This document shows, piece by piece, positions 9,606 through 30,165 of a stretch of 64,000 nucleotides of DNA (the first letter of the stretch is position 1; every line of letters starts with the position of its first letter). This DNA is from Halanaeroarchaeum sulfurireducens. Its GTDB lineage: Archaea > Halobacteriota > Halobacteria > Halobacteriales > Halobacteriaceae. The stretch is taken from contig NZ_CP008875.1 of assembly GCF_001011115.1 (NCBI RefSeq), positions 1 to 64,000 of the forward strand, in the 5' to 3' direction. Under the pieces are notes generated by a model. That model had not been told where the DNA came from, did not search any database, and saw nothing but the letters and a program-made list of their open reading frames with translations. Position numbers and translations under genes: made by a program.

Positions 9606-10601
9606 ATGACGAACCCGCTCTTCTCCACGTATACCCAAGGCGAGAACCGTGTGACGTCGACATTGCTCGCGGTGCTCGAACACGTAAACAACCGTCTCGG
9701 TGAGGACATCCTCGAAGCACTCGTCGACGAATCCGATCTCTCACTTGTCGCTTTCGACAATCAAGTGACCGGCGTGGAGTCGATACCGGATGCAGCCATT
9801 CGTGGATCGACAGCCCTCTGGTTCGAAACAAAGACGAGCCGAAACGCGGTCAGGAGAAATCAGCTCGAAGACCACCTCAAGGCTCTCGATCAGGACCCGT
9901 CAGACCTCCAGCGGTTGATCGTTCTCACACCCGACGAGCGGCCCCCCGATGAAGTGCAGGCGGTCGATGATGAACGTCTGGTCTGGGCGAGTTTCGATAC
10001 GCTCGTGGGAACGCTCGAATCGGTACTGGAACGCGACGTCGGAAGTGCCGAGGCGAGTATGTACGTCCCGACCGAACGGGAAGCCTTCCTGCTGCGCGAA
10101 CTGATGCGGTTCATCTACGACGAGGAACTCGTTAGCGGGAAAGAAGACCGGGTTATGGTCGTCGCTGCGCGAAGAGCATGGGACGAATATGGCACATACG
10201 ACCACTACTTCTGTCAGCCCAACCGTTCGTTCAAGCCGGTTTCACACCTTGCGTTCTACAAGGACGGCGAAATCAAATGCGAGGTCCCGCGGGTAACCGG
10301 AAGTATCGAGAGCATTACCTTGGACGAGGAGACTGTTGACGACCACCCAGACCTCTCTCAGAACCAAAAGCAGTCTTTGCTCGAATCAGTCGAAAAGATG
10401 CGAGAAAACGAGTCAGAACGGTATGGAGATACCCAGAAGGTTCTGTTCCTCGAACCTGATCTTGAGCTGGATCAGCCAGTTCAGAATGACAAGACAGCAA
10501 GCGACTCTAACCGGACGGTTGCATTCGTACAGGGCCACCGGTACGTTTCGTTATCGATGCTTCGGGAGGGCCCCCAACAAACAACAGAACTTGAGGAATG
10601 A
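9606..10601 (+). CDS. PD-(D/E)XK nuclease-like protein in the BREX locus
   Basis: This 331-residue protein sits between the second brxC and pglX. Its N-terminal 110 residues fit the PD-(D/E)XK nuclease fold: an early glutamate (E13), the acidic residue of IPDAAI (D62), and the strand LWFETKTSR giving E74 and K76. This is the catalytic layout of restriction-type and Holliday-junction-type nucleases. The remainder, from about residue 140, is not recognised and could be a target or regulatory domain. There is no convincing Shine-Dalgarno sequence before the ATG; an A+T-rich TATA-like stretch about 30 bases upstream suggests a separate leaderless transcript. In the BREX setting it could act as a restriction effector, but BREX is not known to need DNA cleavage, so this is inference. 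Nuclease assignment is motif-based only. Confidence 0.7.
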   Translation: MTNPLFSTYTQGENRVTSTLLAVLEHVNNRLGEDILEALVDESDLSLVAFDNQVTGVESIPDAAIRGSTALWFETKTSRNAVRRNQLEDHLKALDQDPSDLQRLIVLTPDERPPDEVQAVDDERLVWASFDTLVGTLESVLERDVGSAEASMYVPTEREAFLLRELMRFIYDEELVSGKEDRVMVVAARRAWDEYGTYDHYFCQPNRSFKPVSHLAFYKDGEIKCEVPRVTGSIESITLDEETVDDHPDLSQNQKQSLLESVEKMRENESERYGDTQKVLFLEPDLELDQPVQNDKTASDSNRTVAFVQGHRYVSLSMLREGPQQTTELEE

Positions 10602-10622
10602 TCGGTCACGATAGATGAAAGT

Positions 10623-10862
10623 TCAGAGATCTTCATTGGAGTAGGCGTTCCCGTCGCTGTCGTAGACTACGTATCCTTCCCAGTCCGTGTCTTCAGGGAT
10701 ACTGTGGATACCGTCGAGAGACTCGTACGTGGCTACTTGTTCGAGTGCTTCACCCGGAGGACTGTTATAGTCGATGCGAACGAGGACGCACCCATTGTCG
10801 GGATACATCGCTTCCCGCTCGCGTCTGCCGGCAGACATCCCCGATGACTCGTCATCAGTCAT
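10623..10862 (-). CDS. Small acidic hypothetical protein
   Basis: This is a 79-residue protein on the strand opposite to the BREX genes, convergent with the nuclease-like gene (21 bases apart). It is acidic and has a compact alpha/beta look, with the pattern CVLVRIDYNSPPGEALEQVA followed by WEGYVVYDSDG, so it appears to be a real protein, not an antisense shadow. An internal methionine at residue 9 is an alternative start. It lies about 70 bases downstream of the TATA-binding-protein gene on the same strand, and the two may be co-transcribed. I do not recognise the family. Its position between a toxic-looking nuclease and a transcription factor makes a regulator or inhibitor role possible, but nothing in the sequence shows this. 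Confidence 0.6.
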   Translation of the reverse strand: MTDDESSGMSAGRREREAMYPDNGCVLVRIDYNSPPGEALEQVATYESLDGIHSIPEDTDWEGYVVYDSDGNAYSNEDL

Positions 10863-10931
10863 GACTCAGTCTTAGACAGAAAGCTCTATGATTGTTTCCC
10901 CGATCGAAAACTCGGCAATGACTGTCTCGAA

Positions 10932-11477
10932 TTACAGAAGGTCATTTACCTGATTCTGGAGGCGGAGAAAGGCTTCTTCGTCTTCTTCAGCAGTACGTCC
11001 ACCCGTGATGACTACTTTCCCACTGGAGAAGACCAACAAGACACAGCGAGTAGAATCAGGCCGATAAATCAAACCGGGGAATTGCTCGGGCTCATATTCT
11101 GTATCTTCTAACCCTAATGCGATCATCAGCGCGTTCAGCTCAATATCTTTCTCAAGTTCCCCGACTGAGACTACGTTCTTCACCTCAAGCGATGGGTCAC
11201 TGAATTCCAGCCCCATCTCTGTGAGATTGGACAAGAACCGATCGTTGACCTGGTACATCGTGTCGAAGTCATCACCTCCACGGAGAATGTATTTCCCAGA
11301 GGTATACAGAATTATTAGTTCGCCGTCTTCTTCGAATCGAAGGAAAGTAGCGTTATTCTCGGGCTCGTAGTTGGCAACGGGCAGCTTTGAGTCATTAGCG
11401 AGTTCCTCAATATCTACTTCAACCCTTAGATCACCTCCTGCCACAATATTCACAACTTCAACTGCTAGTCCACCCAT
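10932..11477 (-). CDS. Divergent TATA-binding protein (TBP) paralogue
   Basis: This 181-residue protein has the two-repeat architecture of archaeal TBP and nearly its usual length (about 185). Repeat 1 runs from about residue 6 (VEVVNIVAGGDL) and repeat 2 from about residue 97 (LEVKNVVSVGEL). Repeat 2 is canonical: YEPEQFPGLIYR and LLVFSSGKVVITGG keep both phenylalanines that kink the TATA box (F133, F150). Repeat 1 has lost them: the first is replaced by asparagine (PENNATFLRF, residue 42) and the second by tyrosine (LYTSGK, residue 58). It should still present a saddle but with altered DNA contact on one side. Haloarchaea are known to carry several TBPs that pair with multiple TFBs. This copy lies inside the BREX locus, antisense to it and divergent from pglX, suggesting a dedicated or regulatory role there. 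Confidence 0.85.
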   Translation of the reverse strand: MGGLAVEVVNIVAGGDLRVEVDIEELANDSKLPVANYEPENNATFLRFEEDGELIILYTSGKYILRGGDDFDTMYQVNDRFLSNLTEMGLEFSDPSLEVKNVVSVGELEKDIELNALMIALGLEDTEYEPEQFPGLIYRPDSTRCVLLVFSSGKVVITGGRTAEEDEEAFLRLQNQVNDLL

Positions 11478-11586
11478 TGCTAGAATACAATAGTTCAGTG
11501 AGGATTACTCTGGTGGAACAGAAGGGAGATGATTGAGCAAACATCCCAGCAACATTAAAGGTGGTCGTGTGATTCGGACATAGCAT
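11458..11586 (-). CDS. Possible 42-codon leader ORF overlapping the TBP gene
   Basis: On the minus strand an ATG at 11586 is preceded by AGGAGGTGATC (11600-11590), a perfect complement of the 16S rRNA 3-prime tail, with about eight bases between GGAGG and the ATG. The frame stays open for 42 codons, running across the TBP start at 11477 and stopping at 11458, so it overlaps the TBP gene by 20 bases in another frame. The predicted peptide is not acidic and matches nothing I recognise, so it may be translated only for its regulatory effect. A shorter alternative ORF (MSESHDHL) begins at about 11578. It is included because such a strong ribosome site is unusual in haloarchaea; translation is not demonstrated. 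Confidence 0.35.
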   Translation of the reverse strand: MLCPNHTTTFNVAGMFAQSSPFCSTRVILTELLYSSNGWTSS

Positions 11587-11589
11587 ACA

Positions 11590-11600
11590 GATCACCTCCT
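11590..11600. promoter_or_regulatory. Perfect Shine-Dalgarno (minus strand) / anti-SD copy (plus strand)
   Basis: The eleven bases immediately before the pglX ATG read GATCACCTCCT on the plus strand, identical to the 3-prime end of 16S rRNA, and AGGAGGTGATC on the minus strand. It therefore cannot serve as a ribosome site for pglX but is an ideal one for the short minus-strand ORF leading into the TBP gene. pglX is presumably translated from a leaderless or near-leaderless transcript. Confidence 0.6.
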
Positions 11601-14600
11601 ATGGCAAGCGATTCTCTATCCCAACGGAAGGCCCAATTGGACAAGGAAGAGCGTGAACACCTCGAAGACGTCGTCAACAAGATGCGCGAGCGCGTCGAAG
11701 ACAACGTCGAGTTCCAGCTAACGCAGAAGGGGCTTGATGACCAACCCGATGACAGCGAGTCGCTAGACGAGGACACTCAGCAGCTCGTAGAGGCTATCGA
11801 ACTCGAAGCAGTCGATGGCCACACCTGGAACGAGGCCTTCGAGCAGTACGTCACCGGCGTCGGATACACGATCGTGAACCGCCTCGCGGCACTCCGGATG
11901 ATGGAGGTCCGGGACTTCATCGACGAGGAAGTCACCGTCTTCAAGGAAAATGGTCTGACGCCCGCTGCCGAGACGCTCGTCAACGAGGAGTTCCTGCTGG
12001 AGGACGAGGCCATCCTCGAAGCCTACCACAATGCCTGCGACGACCTCGCCGAGGAGATTGATATCCTCTTCGACCGCTCCTCCGCCTACAGTTTGATCAA
12101 TCCGGACGACGATACGTTCGGAAACCTCGCAGGGATGCTCGATGAGGTTCCGGACGAGGTCTGGCGCGGCGACGACGTGCTCGGCTGGGTCTACGAATAC
12201 TACAACGTCAAGCTACTCGACGACCTTCGACGGAAGGGCGACCGCGAGGGTCTCGAACCCGAAGACGTTCCGCCGGCGAATCAGTTCTACACGCCTCACT
12301 GGGTCGTCAGAATGCTCACTGACAACTCTCTGGGGAAGCTCTACCTCGAGCACACTGGCGAACTCCAGGATGTCGTCGAGACGCAGGAGGAGTTAACCCC
12401 GGAGGAGCGGAAGAACCGACCGCTCTCTCCCGACGAGTCGCCCGACATTGCCGACTTCTGTACATACCTCGTTCCCTCTGAAGAGGAAGGCGAACCGACC
12501 GACTTCGATCACCCGGAAGAGCTTCGCGTCATCGACCCTGCATGTGGTAGTGGGCATTTCCTCCTGTATGCATTCGACATCCTGGAGCGCATCTGGCGTG
12601 CTGAAACCGACGTGCCCGACGCGGAGATTCCGCGGAAGATTCTAAAGCACAACCTCTTCGGCGTCGACCTGGACATGCGCGCGGTGCAGCTCGCCGCTTT
12701 CAACCTCTATCTGAAGGGCCGCACCCGTGCGGAAGCCGAGGGAGCCGACACCTTCGAAATGCCCGACGTGGGCATCGTCGGCGCCGATGCCACGGTCGCC
12801 AACGTGGAGGGAGTCGAGGCTGTTTTTGACGAAGTGGCTGGCGACGACGAAATTGTCGAGCAGGCCCTGCGGCACATTCTCGACGCCTTCGAAGAGGTTC
12901 ACGGGCTTGGAAGTCTGCTGGACGTGCGCGGCACCCTGGGAGGCCTCTTCGAGGACGACGCCGACATCGGAGGCACACAGTTGACGCTCGGCGACGACCC
13001 ACGGGAGAGCCATACCTTGGGGCAGGTGTTACACAGTCTGCGAATGGCGGTGGAGGAGCACCGAAACCGGGATTCGTTCCTCGCGCAGGACCTGCGGAGC
13101 TTTGTGCGGCTGTTGGATATTCTGGCGCAGGACTACGATGTGGCACTGATGAACCCGCCATATGGATCGCGGAATCGGATGCCTGAGTCGGTGAAAGCGT
13201 ATGTGAAAGAGCACTACTCTTACAAGCCAGACTTCTACATCAACTTCTTCGAAGTGTGTGAGTCCCTCACTAGGGAAGGAGGGCGGATCGGGATGCTCGT
13301 GCCGCGGACCTTCATGTACAAGCGGACATTCGAAGACTTCCGGACGGACTTCATCGGTGAGAAAGGAGCCTTCGATTTCCTCGCAGAGTACGGCATCGGA
13401 GTGCTCGATAACGCAACTGTCCGTACCGTCGGAACCGTCGTGCGGAGGTCCGATACGGACGGGGATCAGGTCGGTGATTTCTACCGTCTTCACGACCTCG
13501 ACAAAGAGCAGAAAGAGTACGGTTTCCTCACCGCGGCGTATACTGCGGACGAGACACACGAGAGCGACCAAATAAAGCGGCATTATCGGGTCCCGATCTC
13601 AGAATTCGCAAAAGTACCCGGCGGACCTATATCGTACTGGGTGCCAGAGTCTGTCCGCGATCTATTCACGTCGGAGTACGCTCTGGACAGCGAGCGAGGT
13701 AACGTCGACAAGCACAGCGCTGGGAAAGCCAAAGTGGGAATGCAAACCGGATACGACGCTCGTTTCGCAAGACAGTTCTGGGAAGTGGGAGACTTCGAGC
13801 AGTGGGCTCCCTACGCGAAGGGAGGAACGGACGCGTGGGTCGTCCCACAGGTAGACGAAGTCCTCTTCTGGTCGGACGAAGGGCGTGAAGTGAGGCGGTT
13901 TGAGGGGTCATACATGCGGAACGATCAGTTCTACTTCTCCGAGGCGCTGGTGTTCAATCGGATAAAGGAGACCGGACGCCGCTTCGGCTACCTGTCCGAA
14001 CACTCCGTCTTCAGTGATACGGGAATGGTGTACATCCCTAACAGTGAGATTTGGAAGATGCTTGGATACACGAATAGTGAACTGATGAACTATTTGATGA
14101 TATCTCTCACCATTGGCCGGCACTGGAATGTCGGAGAAGTCGGCCGTGTTCCGTGGCCGACGCAGTTGGAGTCGGTGGACGAGATTGAAGCGGAAGCGAA
14201 GCGCCAGTACCAGACGATGCTGAACCTCCGATCGATCGATCCGAACAGCCCGTACTATGCCGGTTCATCCCTCTTGCCGGCGGACTACGAACCGAAGCCG
14301 ACAAACCACCCGCATCGCGCAGACGCCGAAGAAGCTATCGAGATTACATTCGACCGGGGTGCACGAGAAAACACGATTCAGGAACTCGCTCGTCATGCCC
14401 AGCGGATGAAATCAACGTACAGGGCCACGCTTGAACGTTCAGCGCACCGAATTGACGACCTCATCTATGCGAAGCTAGGCCTCCCGGAGAAGGTCCGGCC
14501 TGCGATACGGCAGGAAATATTTGTACGAACCGCCGAGGACCCCGAGGATCGCGAGATTCCAGACCCCGAGTCCGTCCCTGAGGTCCCTGAGAACATCGAG

Positions 14601-15926
14601 GAGGAAGTCAAGGACCTCGTCCACCACTTCGCGATGGAGGCCGTCCGCAAAGAGTCAGACGGCATCATTCCACTCCACGGCGATAACCAACCCGAGATGC
14701 TCGACCGCATCGTCGAGCGTTTCGAAGACGCTTACGAAGAGCACGCTGAGGACCGCCTCGTCGAAGTCGACGAAATCCTCGGCGCCAAGTCCGCCACCGA
14801 CGAGGCCTACCCCAACCTCCGAACATTCATCGAGGAGGACCTGTTCGACTATCACGTCGATCGGATGGAGAACACGCCGATCCTCTGGCGGCTCACCACC
14901 GAGCGCCTCATCGCCGACGCGACGGGCGAAGGCTTCGCCTGCTTCGTCGACTACCACAGCCTCGATTCGAGCCTGTTCGATCGCCTCACGAACCAGTATC
15001 TCGAACCGCGGAAGGCCGAACTCCGGGAACGGCGGAGTGCTGCAAACCGCCGCCGGGGCGACGACTCGCTCTCAGCCAGCGAGCAAGCCGAGGCTGCCGA
15101 ACAGTACGACCGCTGTGCGAGTGGACTCGACCAGATCGCCGTCTTCGAGGACGTGCTCCAGGACCTCGGCAGCACTGACGAACGGGACTTCGACGATGAG
15201 GACCGGAAACGCGTCGAGGAACTGGCTCCGAAGATTGCTGCTTTCCGGGAGGAAACCCGCGAGCGCGTCGCGACGCTGGCAGAACTGCGAGAGCGCCAGG
15301 GCGAGGCGTGGTTCCAGGACACGTTTTCGGACAACTTCTGGAATGCCGTCGACGAGTGGCGCGACGAGTGGATCGACGCGCTCAAGGATCTCGAACACGC
15401 CTGCGAGGCATACGCCAAGCCCGTCGACGAACCTGTCGAGGCCCACCTGGCGGACTTATTCGACTACTTCAACTGGCGGCTCAAGGGGTCGGACCACTAC
15501 TCCAGTTCGGGTATCCTGTTCATGACCTATTACTTCGAGCGGGAGGGGGCCGACCTGCTCGACGAGGACGGTCAGCCGTACGACACACTTACCGAGGGGG
15601 AACGGCTGCTCGCCTCGCTCGCAACGGGCCTCGACAATCCAGACGTAGTCGACGAGGGATACCTCGAAGCGATTGCCGACGACGAAGGCGTCGATGACGT
15701 TGCTGACCTCCCGCCGCTTGCTGAATTCAAAGCGCTGGCCGAGGAGATAGACGATCGCTGCCAAACAGTGGACGAGCGTATTCCCTCTGACTGGGCCGAC
15801 CGTGCGCTCTCGGAGATCACGACCGCCGGCTACCAGCCGAATCACAAACACGGCGTCGAAATCAATATCACGCCGCTCGCCGAGGCCAAAATCGTTCCGA
15901 AGACCGTCGACGACAAAGTCCTGTGA
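11601..15926 (+). CDS. pglX: PglX, BREX adenine-specific DNA methyltransferase
   Basis: This 1441-residue N6-adenine methyltransferase supplies the self-marking activity of BREX. Motif I, the SAM-binding loop, is DPACGSGHFLL at about residues 311-321, and the catalytic motif IV is NPPYG at about residue 516. The long N-terminal region (1-300) and the extended C-terminal half should contain the target-recognition and partner-binding parts. The C-terminus (from about residue 880) is very acidic and helical and includes a proline-rich stretch near 965-990. It follows the plus-strand BREX genes after a 1 kb insert with minus-strand genes. The start is set by the first ATG of a long frame; its upstream 11 bases are an anti-Shine-Dalgarno sequence, so initiation is not by SD pairing. 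Its stop overlaps the pglZ frame. Confidence 0.92.
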   Translation: MASDSLSQRKAQLDKEEREHLEDVVNKMRERVEDNVEFQLTQKGLDDQPDDSESLDEDTQQLVEAIELEAVDGHTWNEAFEQYVTGVGYTIVNRLAALRMMEVRDFIDEEVTVFKENGLTPAAETLVNEEFLLEDEAILEAYHNACDDLAEEIDILFDRSSAYSLINPDDDTFGNLAGMLDEVPDEVWRGDDVLGWVYEYYNVKLLDDLRRKGDREGLEPEDVPPANQFYTPHWVVRMLTDNSLGKLYLEHTGELQDVVETQEELTPEERKNRPLSPDESPDIADFCTYLVPSEEEGEPTDFDHPEELRVIDPACGSGHFLLYAFDILERIWRAETDVPDAEIPRKILKHNLFGVDLDMRAVQLAAFNLYLKGRTRAEAEGADTFEMPDVGIVGADATVANVEGVEAVFDEVAGDDEIVEQALRHILDAFEEVHGLGSLLDVRGTLGGLFEDDADIGGTQLTLGDDPRESHTLGQVLHSLRMAVEEHRNRDSFLAQDLRSFVRLLDILAQDYDVALMNPPYGSRNRMPESVKAYVKEHYSYKPDFYINFFEVCESLTREGGRIGMLVPRTFMYKRTFEDFRTDFIGEKGAFDFLAEYGIGVLDNATVRTVGTVVRRSDTDGDQVGDFYRLHDLDKEQKEYGFLTAAYTADETHESDQIKRHYRVPISEFAKVPGGPISYWVPESVRDLFTSEYALDSERGNVDKHSAGKAKVGMQTGYDARFARQFWEVGDFEQWAPYAKGGTDAWVVPQVDEVLFWSDEGREVRRFEGSYMRNDQFYFSEALVFNRIKETGRRFGYLSEHSVFSDTGMVYIPNSEIWKMLGYTNSELMNYLMISLTIGRHWNVGEVGRVPWPTQLESVDEIEAEAKRQYQTMLNLRSIDPNSPYYAGSSLLPADYEPKPTNHPHRADAEEAIEITFDRGARENTIQELARHAQRMKSTYRATLERSAHRIDDLIYAKLGLPEKVRPAIRQEIFVRTAEDPEDREIPDPESVPEVPENIEEEVKDLVHHFAMEAVRKESDGIIPLHGDNQPEMLDRIVERFEDAYEEHAEDRLVEVDEILGAKSATDEAYPNLRTFIEEDLFDYHVDRMENTPILWRLTTERLIADATGEGFACFVDYHSLDSSLFDRLTNQYLEPRKAELRERRSAANRRRGDDSLSASEQAEAAEQYDRCASGLDQIAVFEDVLQDLGSTDERDFDDEDRKRVEELAPKIAAFREETRERVATLAELRERQGEAWFQDTFSDNFWNAVDEWRDEWIDALKDLEHACEAYAKPVDEPVEAHLADLFDYFNWRLKGSDHYSSSGILFMTYYFEREGADLLDEDGQPYDTLTEGERLLASLATGLDNPDVVDEGYLEAIADDEGVDDVADLPPLAEFKALAEEIDDRCQTVDERIPSDWADRALSEITTAGYQPNHKHGVEINITPLAEAKIVPKTVDDKVL

Positions 15927-22930: not shown

Positions 22931-23682
22931 GGGAATTTCTCCCGGTTGTGATGCTAAATAACCTCGGACGGACAGCGTCTGGGCTGGATAGAAAGGAGTC
23001 CGCAAACATTGGATATTGGCTAGCAATCCCGGGCATTGCCTTCAACGAGAATCCGGGGAATTGCTATTGCCATGTGCCTGGGGACAGCCATTTCCAGGTA
23101 TCTCCGTGACAGCCATTGTCCTGTACTCCGTGTTTTCCATTTCCATCATTCACGGAATAACCGTGTTTGGCAATGAAGGGATTTGCAGATAGATCCAGAA
23201 CATTCGAAAATTCGGACGTCTCCCGATAAATCACCAGACAGCATGGTGATAATGGCTCAAAGCCACTCTAATCGGCACCCGGCGTTGGGATAATGGCTAT
23301 GTGTCGTATTTCTCCCAATACATTGCCCTCAGAAAATCGCCAGAGGGCAGTTTGTTATTGGTGTTCGATCGCGCCCGGATATCGGGCCCATTCTCCGCTA
23401 TTCATCGAAAATGCCCGATTGTAAAATTCGGAATGGCCGTGTGGTTCCATAGCTAAACCATGATTGGCGGCAGAAATCATACTCCTCCACGCTATTCAGT
23501 ATTTTTCCACAGATACGCAAATAATACGTCTAAAACAGCCGTTTCATGGGATTTTCGCCATTCTATAAGTGGTTCCGGCAACTACGGTGAGTCAACATGA
23601 ATCGCAGTCGGACCGTCAACGAAGGTTTCCCTGGTGCCTTCCCCCAGGCCCCACTCCAGCAATCCCAAGGAAAGGGGTTCTG
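22931..23682. other. Intergenic, no gene recognised
   Basis: About 750 bases with no convincing open frame on either strand. The stretch 23040-23160 contains several near copies of CCATTTCC/CCATTGTCC-like words, and 23330-23360 has a short CCCTC/GAGGG inverted pair around an A-rich loop. Base composition is lower in G+C than the BREX genes. It probably represents degraded sequence next to the recombinase and may hold its attachment site, but no att repeat could be identified by eye. Confidence 0.3.
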
Positions 23683-24973: not shown

Positions 24974-25222
24974 CTATTTATATACATTTCGTCGATGACC
25001 GACATTATGTACATAGATCGCTTTTTCTTCTTTCTCCCAGTCAACAATAACCCGGTAATCTCCCACTCGAATTTTATAAAAGGGGTACCCTTGGAGTCTT
25101 TCCAGATAGTGGCCTGGCCAGTCTTGAACCTCTTTAAGTTTATTTAATATTCTTTCTGAAGTTTCGTCTTCTAATTCATTTAGTTGGGCTCTGGCCTTAT
25201 CTGTAAATTCAATATCGGCCAT
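24974..25222 (-). CDS. RelE/ParE-family toxin, apparently without an adjacent antitoxin
   Basis: This 82-residue protein starts at MADIEFTDKARAQLNEL; upstream frame extension to 25285 would cross a TATA-like TATATTTG about 29 bases before this ATG. The sequence follows the RelE/ParE fold: a helical pair at residues 8-40, then GHYLERLQGYPFYKIRVGDYRVIVDW and a terminal VHNVGHRRNVYK strand with basic residues. RelE toxins cleave ribosome-bound mRNA; ParE types poison gyrase, and the sequence does not decide between them. No antitoxin gene lies before or after it on its strand. The only neighbour is the divergent RHH-FtsZ gene, whose N-terminus is an antitoxin-type DNA-binding domain. Codon use is A+T-rich like that neighbour. 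Confidence 0.8.
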   Translation of the reverse strand: MADIEFTDKARAQLNELEDETSERILNKLKEVQDWPGHYLERLQGYPFYKIRVGDYRVIVDWEKEEKAIYVHNVGHRRNVYK

Positions 25223-25305: not shown

Positions 25306-25320
25306 AACACTTAATGTGTT
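25306..25320. promoter_or_regulatory. Palindrome over the putative TATA element of the RHH-FtsZ gene
   Basis: AACAC and GTGTT arms flank TTAAT. The centre lies 26 bases before the ATG at 25339, exactly where the TATA element of a leaderless haloarchaeal transcript should be. A ribbon-helix-helix dimer bound here would block TBP, so the RHH-FtsZ protein may repress its own promoter and possibly the divergent toxin gene. This is inferred from position and symmetry. Confidence 0.45.
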
Positions 25321-25338
25321 ACAACCGTACTACAAATT

Positions 25339-26718
25339 ATGAACGGGAGCGATGAAAAAGGTACGATTATGAATGTTCGGATCCCTCCGTCGCTTGCCTC
25401 TCGACTTGAAGAAGTGCCACAAGAGAGAGGTTTCAAAAACAAATCAGAATTCGTTCGAACTGCTATCAGGGATGCGCTTAATCCACCCGAAGAACTCTCT
25501 GATGACGTTCTTTCCGAGATTGCTAATAGTAGGGAACAAGTTGAGGAAGGGGAGACGACACCACTCGCCGAGATTATGAAAGGATCGAATGATTCGCCCA
25601 TAGAGGATCAGCAGAAATCCTTCTTTTCAGATATTGCAACGGAGGGTTCACTCGGAAAACTAGAATCATTATTTACTGGCACGTACAAAAACGGTACAAC
25701 GAATCTTGATGTACTCGCTATTGGCTGTGGAAATGCAGGAAGCAATACAATCCACCGACTCACGAATATTGGTACAGGAAATATTGAAACCTTAGCAGTC
25801 AATACAGATCGCGAACATCTAAAACATGTAAATGCAGATACCAAGCTTTTAATCGGAACTGATCTTGCTCAAGGAATGGGTGCTGCGGGAGATCCAGACA
25901 TCGGTAAGCAAGCGGCGCAAAGTGCAGAAGAGTCTATAAAACAAGTAATTGGGGATACGGATATTGTCTTCATTACCGCTGGTCTCGGAGGTGGGACAGG
26001 AACTGGTACCGCACCAGTTATTGCAGAATTAGTTTCGGAGATGGGGGCCTTAGCAATTGGCTTAGTATCTACCCCATTCAACGTTGAACAAGCACGTCAG
26101 CATAAAGCACAGGAGGGAATTGAACAACTCCGTTCAAAATGTGACACCGTGATAATTTTCGATAACAATCTCCTACTCGAGTATATACCCAATCTTCCAA
26201 TTGGAAAAGCGTTCTCTGTAATGGATCAAATACTCGCAGAAAGTATGGAAAGCCTCATCGGAACCTTCTCTGAGAACGCTCTCGTTGATATTGACTTTGG
26301 TGATTTCAAGACGGTCGTTCAACGGGGTGATGTCGGGGGGATTCTAATTGGAGAGGGTAGCTTGGATAACCCTGAGCATATTATTGAGCAAACCCTCCAG
26401 CATCCTTTGATCAATGCAGATATTAGTTCCGCATCCAAAGGATTGGTTCAAATTACAGGCTCTGAACAAATGAGTCTAAACGAGGCTGAAGATATCGTTG
26501 AAGGAGTGATTCATCGCATGTCCGATGATGCAAGCTTAATTTGGGGGGCGCAAATTGATCCGAAGATGGGAGATAAAGTTCGGGTCATGGTAATGTTAAC
26601 AGACCTTAATTACGTCAATGAAAAGTCCCTTACTTATGCCACTAGTGATGAACCTTCTGAAGACGTTGAACTACTCTCTGAAAGTATCCCTCTTGAGGGA
26701 AACGAGTTAAGGGCCTAG
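25339..26718 (+). CDS. Ribbon-helix-helix DNA-binding domain fused to an FtsZ-type tubulin GTPase
   Basis: This 459-residue protein is composed of two known domains not normally joined. Residues about 8-48 form a CopG/MetJ-type RHH domain: beta strand IMNVRIP, helix SLASRLEEVPQERG, and helix NKSEFVRTAIRDALN. A flexible acidic linker (50-118) follows. Residues about 122-445 are FtsZ: the nucleotide loop GCGNAGSN (129-136), LAVNTD (152-157), the tubulin signature GGGTGTGTAP (217-226), NLPIGKAFSVMDQ, and the T7 catalytic loop DIDFGD (317-322), keeping both aspartates but with aspartate where E. coli FtsZ has asparagine 207. GTPase and polymerisation therefore look possible. It is A+T-rich compared with flanking genes and divergent from a RelE-type toxin. 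A role in moving or positioning bound DNA, like TubR-TubZ in one chain, is inference. Confidence 0.9.
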   Translation: MNGSDEKGTIMNVRIPPSLASRLEEVPQERGFKNKSEFVRTAIRDALNPPEELSDDVLSEIANSREQVEEGETTPLAEIMKGSNDSPIEDQQKSFFSDIATEGSLGKLESLFTGTYKNGTTNLDVLAIGCGNAGSNTIHRLTNIGTGNIETLAVNTDREHLKHVNADTKLLIGTDLAQGMGAAGDPDIGKQAAQSAEESIKQVIGDTDIVFITAGLGGGTGTGTAPVIAELVSEMGALAIGLVSTPFNVEQARQHKAQEGIEQLRSKCDTVIIFDNNLLLEYIPNLPIGKAFSVMDQILAESMESLIGTFSENALVDIDFGDFKTVVQRGDVGGILIGEGSLDNPEHIIEQTLQHPLINADISSASKGLVQITGSEQMSLNEAEDIVEGVIHRMSDDASLIWGAQIDPKMGDKVRVMVMLTDLNYVNEKSLTYATSDEPSEDVELLSESIPLEGNELRA

Positions 26719-27026: not shown

Positions 27027-27659
27027 TTATCTACGTGGGTCGTTCATTTTGCCCAGCCACACCACAAGCAGAAAGAGTAATAAGAAGATTTCCAGCGTGA
27101 TGGACACAGGGTGATACACGATAGGGGCTGCCTTTGGAAATTGGATTGAGTTCATTTGTGCGTACTTTGCAACTATCTGCAGCGCGAATCCTAGAATTAA
27201 CAAAATTGCTCCAGTTTTGAGAAACACATATTCCGTCTTATCGTTTATAAGACTCATAGCAGTCTCCCGTGTCATTGTCTTAGTGAGGCTCATATCAAAT
27301 TTGTCCGGCATGTGCTTGCTATCTGTAATTTCTACTGATATTTCTTTCTCCTTTAGAGGTTTGTTTGGGGCATCTTCTAATTCAATTTTTTTACATTTGA
27401 GCTCCTTACGTTCTGCTTTTAGTTTTTCATATTGTTCAGGAGGGTTTAGCTCAAATGCAAGTGTGTGAGACCCGTAATTCTGAGAAGTTACCTGCGCCTC
27501 GTCATGAAGAGTTGCCCAGGCATAGGATATTTTCCTATAACGCGGCCAAATGTATCTCGATAGTTTGTTTATTGGACGAATTCGAAAGCCAGCAATTGTT
27601 AATGCACCTAACCCGTCTAAAATTAAGCCAAACAGGGTGAGTTGATTTGGTGTTACCAT
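27027..27659 (-). CDS. Small membrane protein with cytoplasmic or external linker, unknown
   Basis: This 210-residue protein starts at MVTPNQLTLFGL, selected because a hydrophobic segment begins directly after it; the frame continues upstream to 27815, but that part overlaps the next gene's start. Three membrane segments are visible: about residues 7-26 (LFGLILDGLGALTIAGF), about 150-170 (LKTGAILLILGFALQIVA) and about 185-205 (ITLEIFLLLFLLVVWLG). Between the first two lies a 120-residue charged region with a lysine/glutamate-rich coiled coil (YEKLKAERKELKCKKIELED). No family is recognised. It is A+T-rich like the RHH-FtsZ gene, converges with it across 300 bases and probably arrived with it. 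A membrane partner or anchor for the FtsZ-type protein is only a possibility. Confidence 0.65.
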   Translation of the reverse strand: MVTPNQLTLFGLILDGLGALTIAGFRIRPINKLSRYIWPRYRKISYAWATLHDEAQVTSQNYGSHTLAFELNPPEQYEKLKAERKELKCKKIELEDAPNKPLKEKEISVEITDSKHMPDKFDMSLTKTMTRETAMSLINDKTEYVFLKTGAILLILGFALQIVAKYAQMNSIQFPKAAPIVYHPVSITLEIFLLLFLLVVWLGKMNDPRR

Positions 27660-28681: not shown

Positions 28682-29173
28682 CTAGACGAGATCATTGAAT
28701 CCTTCGTCCTCCATCAGTTCAGCCACACGTTCCGGATGGTGGAACGCAGCAAGCAGGGCAAACTCTCGTGCATCCGTTTTCGACACCTCACTCGTACCGA
28801 GTTCGTCCGCGAGGTTCGCCCGGAACTCCGCTTCCTGGTCGGCCACCGTATCCCTTACATGGAGCTCCAGGCGGGTATCACGCTCGTCGCCGACATTACT
28901 CCGCCTGACGAAATACGGATACGTCTGGCCCGTAGAACTCTGGCCTCCAGTTGTTGCGCTACCTCCCTTGGTGCTACTTGCTTCGACAGACTGCCCACCA
29001 GCAATGTCGTGGTCCGTATCTTCGATGTCTGCTGATGCCTGCTTCTGTGAATCTGCCTCTGCCTCTGCGCTCTTTTCGGCCGTTTCCGATTGGTCGACGA
29101 CATCATTCTCGCTTGGTTCTTCGTCGCTCTCCCCGAAATCGAGGTTTCCGGAGCCGGACTTGAAATTACTCAT
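28682..29173 (-). CDS. Partner protein of the ParA-like ATPase
   Basis: This 163-residue protein is encoded directly after parA with an ATGA-type overlap (29170-29173), so the two are co-translated. The first 80 residues are disordered, acidic and serine/alanine/glutamine-rich. The C-terminal 75 residues look folded: YPYFVRRSNVGDERDTRLEL, then helical VADQEAEFRANLADELG and TDAREFALLAAFHHPERVAEL. It lacks a ParB nuclease-type motif. In haloarchaeal plasmids, ParA genes are commonly followed by such a small non-ParB partner, presumed to bind the centromere or adapt ParA to it. The assignment is therefore by gene order and general architecture. Confidence 0.65.
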   Translation of the reverse strand: MSNFKSGSGNLDFGESDEEPSENDVVDQSETAEKSAEAEADSQKQASADIEDTDHDIAGGQSVEASSTKGGSATTGGQSSTGQTYPYFVRRSNVGDERDTRLELHVRDTVADQEAEFRANLADELGTSEVSKTDAREFALLAAFHHPERVAELMEDEGFNDLV

Positions 29174-30165
29174 GTGTAGCTCACCTCCACCGGGTCTTTG
29201 TCCGCCAGATCAATTCTCCGTGTCTCCTCATCTTGGAATTCAAGTTCTAGTACCGGATCAACGTCGGCTCCGAAGGTATCGACGGCGATGAATCGGGCGA
29301 GCTCGTACAACTTCCGTAGTGTATCGATTTCCCTGTCCCGGACCCGTCGATGGCCGGGTTCACTTACCATTGCGCCGTCCTGTTCGAATGTTTTCCACCG
29401 CTCCTCGACAACCTTGAACGCTGACCCTCGCGCTTCCCACATGGCGTCCATGAGGCTCTCCCGGTCCCCGATTGTTACCGGTGTAGCGAACGCGTCCGTC
29501 TTTTCGAACTGTTCGCGGTACTGTTGGTGGGCGTTCGTTTGGCCGACTCCTGATGGGACGACGCAGGACAACCCGATTTCGATGTCCAGTTGGTCCTCCA
29601 TATTGCCGACGAGTTCCTCGAGGCCTTCCAGACTCAGATTCCCCTTCCCGGCCGGTTTCACGGGCGCAACGAGCGTCCGCATCGCGAAAATCGCGTTATA
29701 GAGGAGGTCTTCTGCGCGTGCGTTTGGATCAATAAGGACTGCATCGTATTCTTCGTTTAGTTGTTGTTTCTTCCAGAGAAGCTCATACAAGAGCTTGAAC
29801 CGTGGGTATTCCTCCCGGCTAATGTTCTGCATTCCCGTTTCGTAGGAAATCTTCTGCTCAAGATTGGATGTGAAATCCCCAAGCATGTCGTGACTCGGGA
29901 TGATATCCACGCTCTCCTCAGTGGACTCAATTAGGTCGTGGAAGTCACCGTCCGGCATATCGAGAATATGCTTGACCAGGTTGTCTGCATCGGGATCGTT
30001 TCGATACTGACCGACATCAAAGAGGCTCGTTAAATTGCCCTCCTGAGGATCGAGGTCGATGACGAGGGTATTCTTCCCCATCCGTTCCAGTGCGACGGCG
30101 ATGTTGGCCGTCATCGTCGTCTTGTACGTTCCACCGGACTCGGAGTAGACTACAGTCGTTATCAT
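29170..30165 (-). CDS. parA: ParA/Soj-family partition ATPase
   Basis: This is a 331-residue ParA-type ATPase. The N-terminal nucleotide-binding loop is YSESGGTYKTTMTANIAVAL; the usual K-G-G-x-G-K-T is altered, with serine for the signature lysine and tyrosine for the last glycine, a variant I recall from other haloarchaeal plasmid ParA proteins. Further motifs are LVIDLDPQEGNLT (switch I region) and YDAVLIDPNARAEDLL (Walker B), then LVAPVKPAGKGNLSL. It would drive segregation of the replicon or integrated element that carries it. The promoter region upstream (30166-30515) is filled with short TGTTACAGAT-type repeats that are good candidates for its centromere and autoregulatory sites. The downstream partner gene overlaps. 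Confidence 0.9.
   Translation of the reverse strand: MITTVVYSESGGTYKTTMTANIAVALERMGKNTLVIDLDPQEGNLTSLFDVGQYRNDPDADNLVKHILDMPDGDFHDLIESTEESVDIIPSHDMLGDFTSNLEQKISYETGMQNISREEYPRFKLLYELLWKKQQLNEEYDAVLIDPNARAEDLLYNAIFAMRTLVAPVKPAGKGNLSLEGLEELVGNMEDQLDIEIGLSCVVPSGVGQTNAHQQYREQFEKTDAFATPVTIGDRESLMDAMWEARGSAFKVVEERWKTFEQDGAMVSEPGHRRVRDREIDTLRKLYELARFIAVDTFGADVDPVLELEFQDEETRRIDLADKDPVEVSYT

Follow-up and report, generated by a model that had tools for sequence, protein, structure and literature searches.

What is the role of a plasmid gene of Halanaeroarchaeum sulfurireducens that joins a ribbon-helix-helix (RHH) DNA-binding domain to a full FtsZ domain in one 459-aa frame (as seen by ORF reading, Pfam and NCBIfam), and that RefSeq labels plainly as "cell division protein FtsZ"? 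Here we have analysed this gene within the window, by which we mean the whole stretch of DNA under study, namely the initial 64 kb of a plasmid contig of 124,256 bp within a 2.2-Mb genome. Judged from sequence, the fusion is very probably the antitoxin of a type II toxin-antitoxin (TA) module with an FtsZ domain attached, because four lines agree: the family of the domain, the gene beside it, the operator, and the recurrence of the arrangement.

The gene itself is the following:

25339 to 26718, forward strand: putative antitoxin-FtsZ fusion gene, 459 aa, ATG start, one open frame

An earlier, sequence-only reading had proposed that this frame holds an RHH domain together with a whole FtsZ, which is borne out by the ORF, Pfam, TIGR00065 and AlphaFold2. 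The plasmid pM27-SA2-01 of a second strain, M27-SA2, is 99.8% identical to the window plasmid over the 4.5 kb tested; its copy of the gene is unbroken, with amino-acid changes only at N359I, A360F and I401V, all in the FtsZ part, and with residues 1-92 the same as in the window. The substitutions between the strains fall in adjacent runs (26414-26418, five; 26538-26539, two; 23112-23115, four bases), of which the first two lie inside the fusion gene, and may stem from local gene conversion or sequencing error.

Up to the FtsZ domain, the protein divides into three parts:

25366 to 25482, forward strand: RHH DNA-binding domain, residues 10-48 (Pfam RHH_1 at 12-47, antitoxin HMM, AlphaFold2 helices)
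25483 to 25578, forward strand: predicted toxin-binding tail of the antitoxin, residues 49-80, formerly read as the "acidic linker" (homology to stand-alone tails)
25579 to 25698 (residues 81-120), forward strand: true linker, about residues 82-119, predicted disordered (pLDDT <50 at 82-119)

The proposed N-terminal RHH fold is returned by AlphaFold2, with helices at residues 17-29 and 35-47 (pLDDT about 60-74), and Pfam RHH_1 matches residues 12-47 at 18.7 bits, slightly below its cut-off of 20.5; confidence of the model is low at 82-119 and again at 429-459. When residues 1-119 were used as query, dozens of stand-alone RHH proteins of ~90 aa were recovered across Halobacteria, aligning at about residues 4-80. 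An HMM built from 26 stand-alone haloarchaeal antitoxins scores 78 bits on the fusion over residues 3-79, against 19 bits on its N-terminus for an HMM from 39 CdrS proteins, RHH regulators of cell division whose genes lie immediately upstream of ftsZ2. A CdrS origin of the fusion RHH was considered as a candidate and is ruled out by these two scores. Since the antitoxin HMM spans residues 3-79, the "acidic linker" is mostly antitoxin tail: it does lie between the domains as described, but up to about residue 80 it belongs to the antitoxin, leaving about 82-119 as linker proper. The tail has a mean identity of 38% to stand-alone antitoxin tails, has the motif LSxxxL...SRxQxExGET in common with them, and is modelled with two further helices (residues 55-69 and 76-81). 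By this homology, residues 3-79 are a predicted complete type II antitoxin, RHH domain plus toxin-binding tail, and we infer that residues 49-80 would contact the toxin.

A candidate partner lies on the other side of the promoter region:

24974 to 25222, reverse strand: RelE/ParE-family toxin gene, 82 aa, divergent from the fusion (Pfam ParE_toxin, 4.5e-11)

A stand-alone toxin HMM, trained on a set that excludes the window toxin, scores it at 102 bits. The protein is mostly 45-54% identical to toxins adjoining homologous antitoxins, retains the invariant positions of its family and carries RelE catalytic-type positions (GDYR; GHRRNVY), the roles of which we take from E. coli RelE; the toxin-family profile also matches solved RelE toxin structures. 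Both strains carry this gene whole and without any difference, and no second antitoxin gene turned up beside it. PADLOC, run on the fusion and the toxin, gave no informative model. All 27 stand-alone loci that we fetched comprise an antitoxin gene followed by a RelE/ParE toxin gene homologous to that at 24974-25222, mostly with an 8-nt gene overlap. Gene order at the fusions differs, the toxin gene being divergent in the window and in a second genome, G123, and co-directional in a third, G223. The divergent toxin in the window and G123, in place of the usual antitoxin-toxin operon, counts against the TA-module reading; the one-operon arrangement is common in type II TA but not essential to the definition.

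In RelBE modules, an RHH antitoxin both neutralises the toxin and acts as repressor of the promoter from which it is expressed (PMC2812701), and a candidate site for such repression directly precedes the fusion:

25316 to 25333, no strand assigned: putative antitoxin operator GTGTTACaaccGTACTAC (GTGTTAC-N4-GTACTAC), 5 bp 5' of the fusion ATG

A perfect GTGATAC-N4-GTATCAC palindrome occurs in 25 of the 27 stand-alone loci, and in most of the upstream regions listed a few bp separate it from the antitoxin ATG that follows. With a PWM of these stand-alone TA operators, 25316-25333 is the top-scoring position of the whole 64 kb, and it is also the only exact match to a degenerate operator pattern in the window. 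The G123 fusion has GTGTTACgattGTAAGAC 3 bp 5' of its start (PWM best of 19.5 kb) and the G223 fusion has GTGTTGCgcttGTAATAC 6 bp 5' of its start (PWM second best of 19.5 kb). Each of the three fusion stretches contains a single copy of the core GTGTTxC-N4-GTAxxAC; this core was derived from these same three sites, and therefore the PWM ranking is the unbiased test. Across the 2.2-Mb genome, the degenerate pattern has exact matches only at 25316-25333 and at a chromosomal TA operator (C1:451012), and a search with the operator pattern found no iterated centromere array in the 64-kb window or the 2.2-Mb genome. With one site besides the chromosomal TA's own, the pattern points to an operator for autoregulation and away from a centromere for partition. 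The binding of specific DNA that had been predicted for the fusion thus gains support from a conserved putative operator adjoining the gene. In another species of Halanaeroarchaeum (G346, L055:1200-1733), the antitoxin of a stand-alone TA pair is apparently frame-shifted and the operator is intact.

The same domain order recurs in two more single-frame antitoxin-FtsZ fusions, G223 (472 aa, on a 3.6-Mb contig) and G123 (471 aa, on a 3.0-Mb contig), both very diverged, from two other families and on chromosome-sized contigs. The total is 3 of 391 Halobacteria genomes, a rarity that counts against the TA-module reading. The N-termini of G223 and G123 score 63 and 51 bits with the antitoxin HMM versus 27 and 16 bits with the CdrS HMM. 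Beside the G123 fusion stands a divergent 94-aa gene, in the same layout as in the window, whose predicted fold (pLDDT 63) has RelE toxins as its Foldseek matches 1-4 and 6 (best E 0.012); the G223 fusion is followed by a 99-aa gene whose best Pfam match is ParE_toxin (0.038) and whose sole NCBIfam match is RelE_StbE (0.17). These RelE-like genes are weak matches (E about 0.01-0.04) that lack the terminal Arg/Tyr positions, and the stand-alone toxin HMM gives 7.8 bits on the G123 neighbour and no match to the G223 neighbour. In a tree, the FtsZ parts of G123 and G223 pair (99/95); an AU test of a single origin for the three fusions gave p=0.079 on very long branches, so that a single origin is neither supported nor rejected.

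Closer relatives were not recovered, with none at E<=1e-104 in the 391 Halobacteria and none at E<=1e-101 in three families (146, 125 and 170 genomes). Most of the next-best among the matches listed turn out to be cdrS-ftsZ2 operons in which the reading runs past one stop codon, equal in order but consisting of two genes. GTDB contig scans returned no fusion and one Natronomonas contig (L106) with a stand-alone RHH; pattern scans of viral contigs from the window, G223 and G123 sequences returned no fusion and no viral origin, and phage matches cover either the FtsZ part or the RHH part only. A CopG protein of Haloarcula virus Harhisp1 (H189, MW344767.1, 17759-17959) is 39% identical to the antitoxin part and, on that similarity, could be a virus-borne antitoxin. 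A plasmid of Salinibaculum sp. KK48 (L009:5506-7200) holds an additional RHH-ftsZ pair, the RHH of which scores 57.5 bits with the CdrS HMM, so the pair is apparently a plasmid-borne, diverged cdrS-ftsZ2 operon.

The remainder of the protein raises the question of what FtsZ is doing in an antitoxin:

25699 to 26622, forward strand: FtsZ domain, FtsZ2-related and very diverged, residues 121-428 (Pfam, NCBIfam, tree, AlphaFold2, Foldseek)
25987 to 26016, forward strand: tubulin signature GGGTGTGTAP, residues 217-226 (alignment)
26287 to 26304, forward strand: T7 loop, altered to DIDFGD, residues 317-322 (host FtsZ: NLDYAD/NLDFAD)

Pfam assigns the Tubulin/FtsZ GTPase domain (2.8e-39, residues 125-282) and FtsZ_C (8.2e-21, residues 337-423), NCBIfam ftsZ TIGR00065 passes its cut-off (309.7 versus 295.2 bits), and AlphaFold2 gives a confident FtsZ fold (mostly pLDDT 80-98 over 121-428) whose top PDB match in Foldseek is M. 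jannaschii FtsZ (2vap). A PDB sequence search likewise reaches FtsZ at 1e-74 and a plasmid RepX/TubZ-type protein only at 2e-6. The FtsZ part is about 46-48% identical to FtsZ2 (48% to host FtsZ2) and 41% to host FtsZ1, and in a tree it joins the FtsZ2 clade basally, on a long branch, a placement that is not firm (87/79). As the host also encodes FtsZ1 and FtsZ2, the fusion is an accessory protein and not the division FtsZ. The signature and T7 loop named in the sequence-only reading are both present, starting at residues 217 and 317. The T7 loop is NLDYAD or NLDFAD in 23 of 23 FtsZ1/FtsZ2 alignment rows, so the reported change from asparagine to aspartate, by which the fusion departs from the canonical NxDxxD, is real. 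Since the T7 loop of one subunit complements the GTPase site of the next, hydrolysis of GTP by the window fusion is probably reduced. The T7 loop is lost in G123 and G223; the signature loop, intact in the window fusion, is nearly intact in G123 and degenerate in G223, and the C-terminal partner peptide of FtsZ1/FtsZ2 (GLDVIR / DIDFVE) is missing from all three fusions in the alignment.

On the far side of the fusion is a gene whose membership of the module is putative:

27027 to 27659, reverse strand: membrane protein gene adjoining the fusion

Its product has no blastp similarity to the membrane proteins beside the G123 and G223 fusions. Those beside the RelE-like genes of the chromosomal fusions (L089:7218-7871 and L090:10875-11432) are homologous to each other (27%, 2e-17). 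A conserved membrane-protein partner was ruled out, the proteins belonging to a wider haloarchaeal family that is unlinked to FtsZ or toxins at 14 other loci. Further along the window plasmid, 28682-30165 holds a ParA gene (29170-30165) and then a small gene annotated as acyl-CoA dehydrogenase, which is possibly a ParA partner instead. In the plasmid annotation of M27-SA2, 485-21007 corresponds to a BREX-5 type cluster (BrxB-domain protein, PglX, PglZ, helicase-related protein), inside which lies a gene for a TATA-box-binding protein (10932-11477); the fusion locus is a few kb away. Giant genes on either side of the G223 fusion (L089:226-6198 and 10037-14758) match the PADLOC models TmtA (1067 bits) and PbeA-like, and the genes flanking G123 look metabolic. 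The BREX-5 cluster near the window locus and TmtA/PbeA around G223 are hints of defence islands.

How might such a module work? By analogy with RelBE/ParDE, an RHH dimer would repress its own promoter and the antitoxin tail would neutralise the RelE/ParE toxin. The least certain step concerns the FtsZ domain, which has lost the partner peptide and whose T7 loop is altered here and absent in the relatives: it may make the antitoxin respond to FtsZ or GTP state, either through attachment to the FtsZ ring of the host or through filaments of its own, such that disturbed division or nucleotide state would free the toxin and arrest growth. We prefer, tentatively, a model in which FtsZ or GTP state gates the toxin; the joint reading, a type II TA module with its antitoxin fused to an FtsZ-derived GTPase domain and gated in this way, we consider reasonably probable, in a judgement weighted to the part that is shown. 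Rather doubtful is a division-guarding abortive system, in which the FtsZ domain would co-assemble with or sense the division ring or the GTP pool, and the RelE-type toxin would be released once that state is lost, for instance when a virus attacks division.

Three other explanations deserve weighing. The FtsZ part may instead co-assemble with or poison FtsZ1/FtsZ2, the antitoxin part serving mainly as feedback on the protein's own level and the toxin link being secondary or decaying. A conserved core with an altered T7 loop and no C-terminal peptide is what would be expected of a capping or poisoning subunit, and an RHH gene (cdrS) is already paired with ftsZ2 in haloarchaea (PMC7439475); this division regulator is nonetheless unlikely, as its RHH is not of the CdrS type by HMM comparison, its toxin gene has stayed intact in both strains, and a RelE-like neighbour is kept at the other two fusions. 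In broader terms, the DNA-tethered regulator linked to division that had been suggested is possible. Quite unlikely is a passive fusion, in which FtsZ would sense nothing and merely stabilise or enlarge the antitoxin, for example by helping it to fold or to resist proteases: the FtsZ part diverges fast, with GTPase motifs lost in G223 and the T7 loop in G123, but in the window copy the G-box is complete and the T7 aspartates are kept even though identity to FtsZ2 is only about 46-48%, which implies selection on nucleotide handling, and the architecture is found in three families. Finally, the one-protein segregation machine of the sequence-only reading, TubR-TubZ in one chain with the RHH on a plasmid site and an FtsZ polymer moving or anchoring the plasmid, falls away as very improbable: the plasmid location, the intact FtsZ core and G-box with a nearly intact T7 loop, and a specific putative DNA site would all suit it, but that site stands alone at the gene's own promoter, the RHH is of antitoxin type with a toxin alongside, the plasmid has its own ParA gene, the two relatives are chromosomal and without the T7 loop, and the nearest PDB relatives are FtsZ and not TubZ.

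If the antitoxin-FtsZ module works as we propose, the state of the cytoskeleton would directly control a toxin that arrests growth. Antitoxin, toxin and operator are each compact and clearly delimited, and a host for testing them is at hand in Haloferax volcanii.

Among known systems, RelBE/ParDE and their haloarchaeal stand-alone version share with the fusion an RHH domain plus toxin-binding tail, a RelE/ParE toxin and a palindromic operator just 5' of the antitoxin; unlike RelBE/ParDE, the fusion antitoxin has a C-terminal FtsZ domain and the toxin is divergent at two of three loci, and the operator half-site is GTGTTAC in the window fusion versus GTGATAC in the stand-alone modules. TubR-TubZ also couples a DNA binder, the winged-helix protein TubR, to a tubulin-like GTPase, whereas the fusion has no centromere array, belongs to the FtsZ and not the TubZ family, carries an RHH antitoxin in place of TubR and has a toxin adjacent. 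The cdrS-ftsZ2 operon (PMC7439475, PMC8406309), the only RHH-FtsZ2 link in the literature searched, likewise places an RHH before FtsZ2, at the base of which the window FtsZ falls, but it consists of two genes, with a CdrS-type RHH and an FtsZ2 that has NLDYAD and the GLDVIR tail. A literature search, with subscription papers and preprints outside its scope, found no FtsZ/tubulin-superfamily protein fused to a TA component, and FtsZ/tubulin is absent from a survey of multidomain RelE/ParE toxins (PMC11980606). In those multidomain toxins, as in TA-chaperone modules (PMC5105189) and CapRel (PMC11578894), an extra domain decides toxin activity, as we propose for the fusion, in which, unlike all three, the extra domain is FtsZ.
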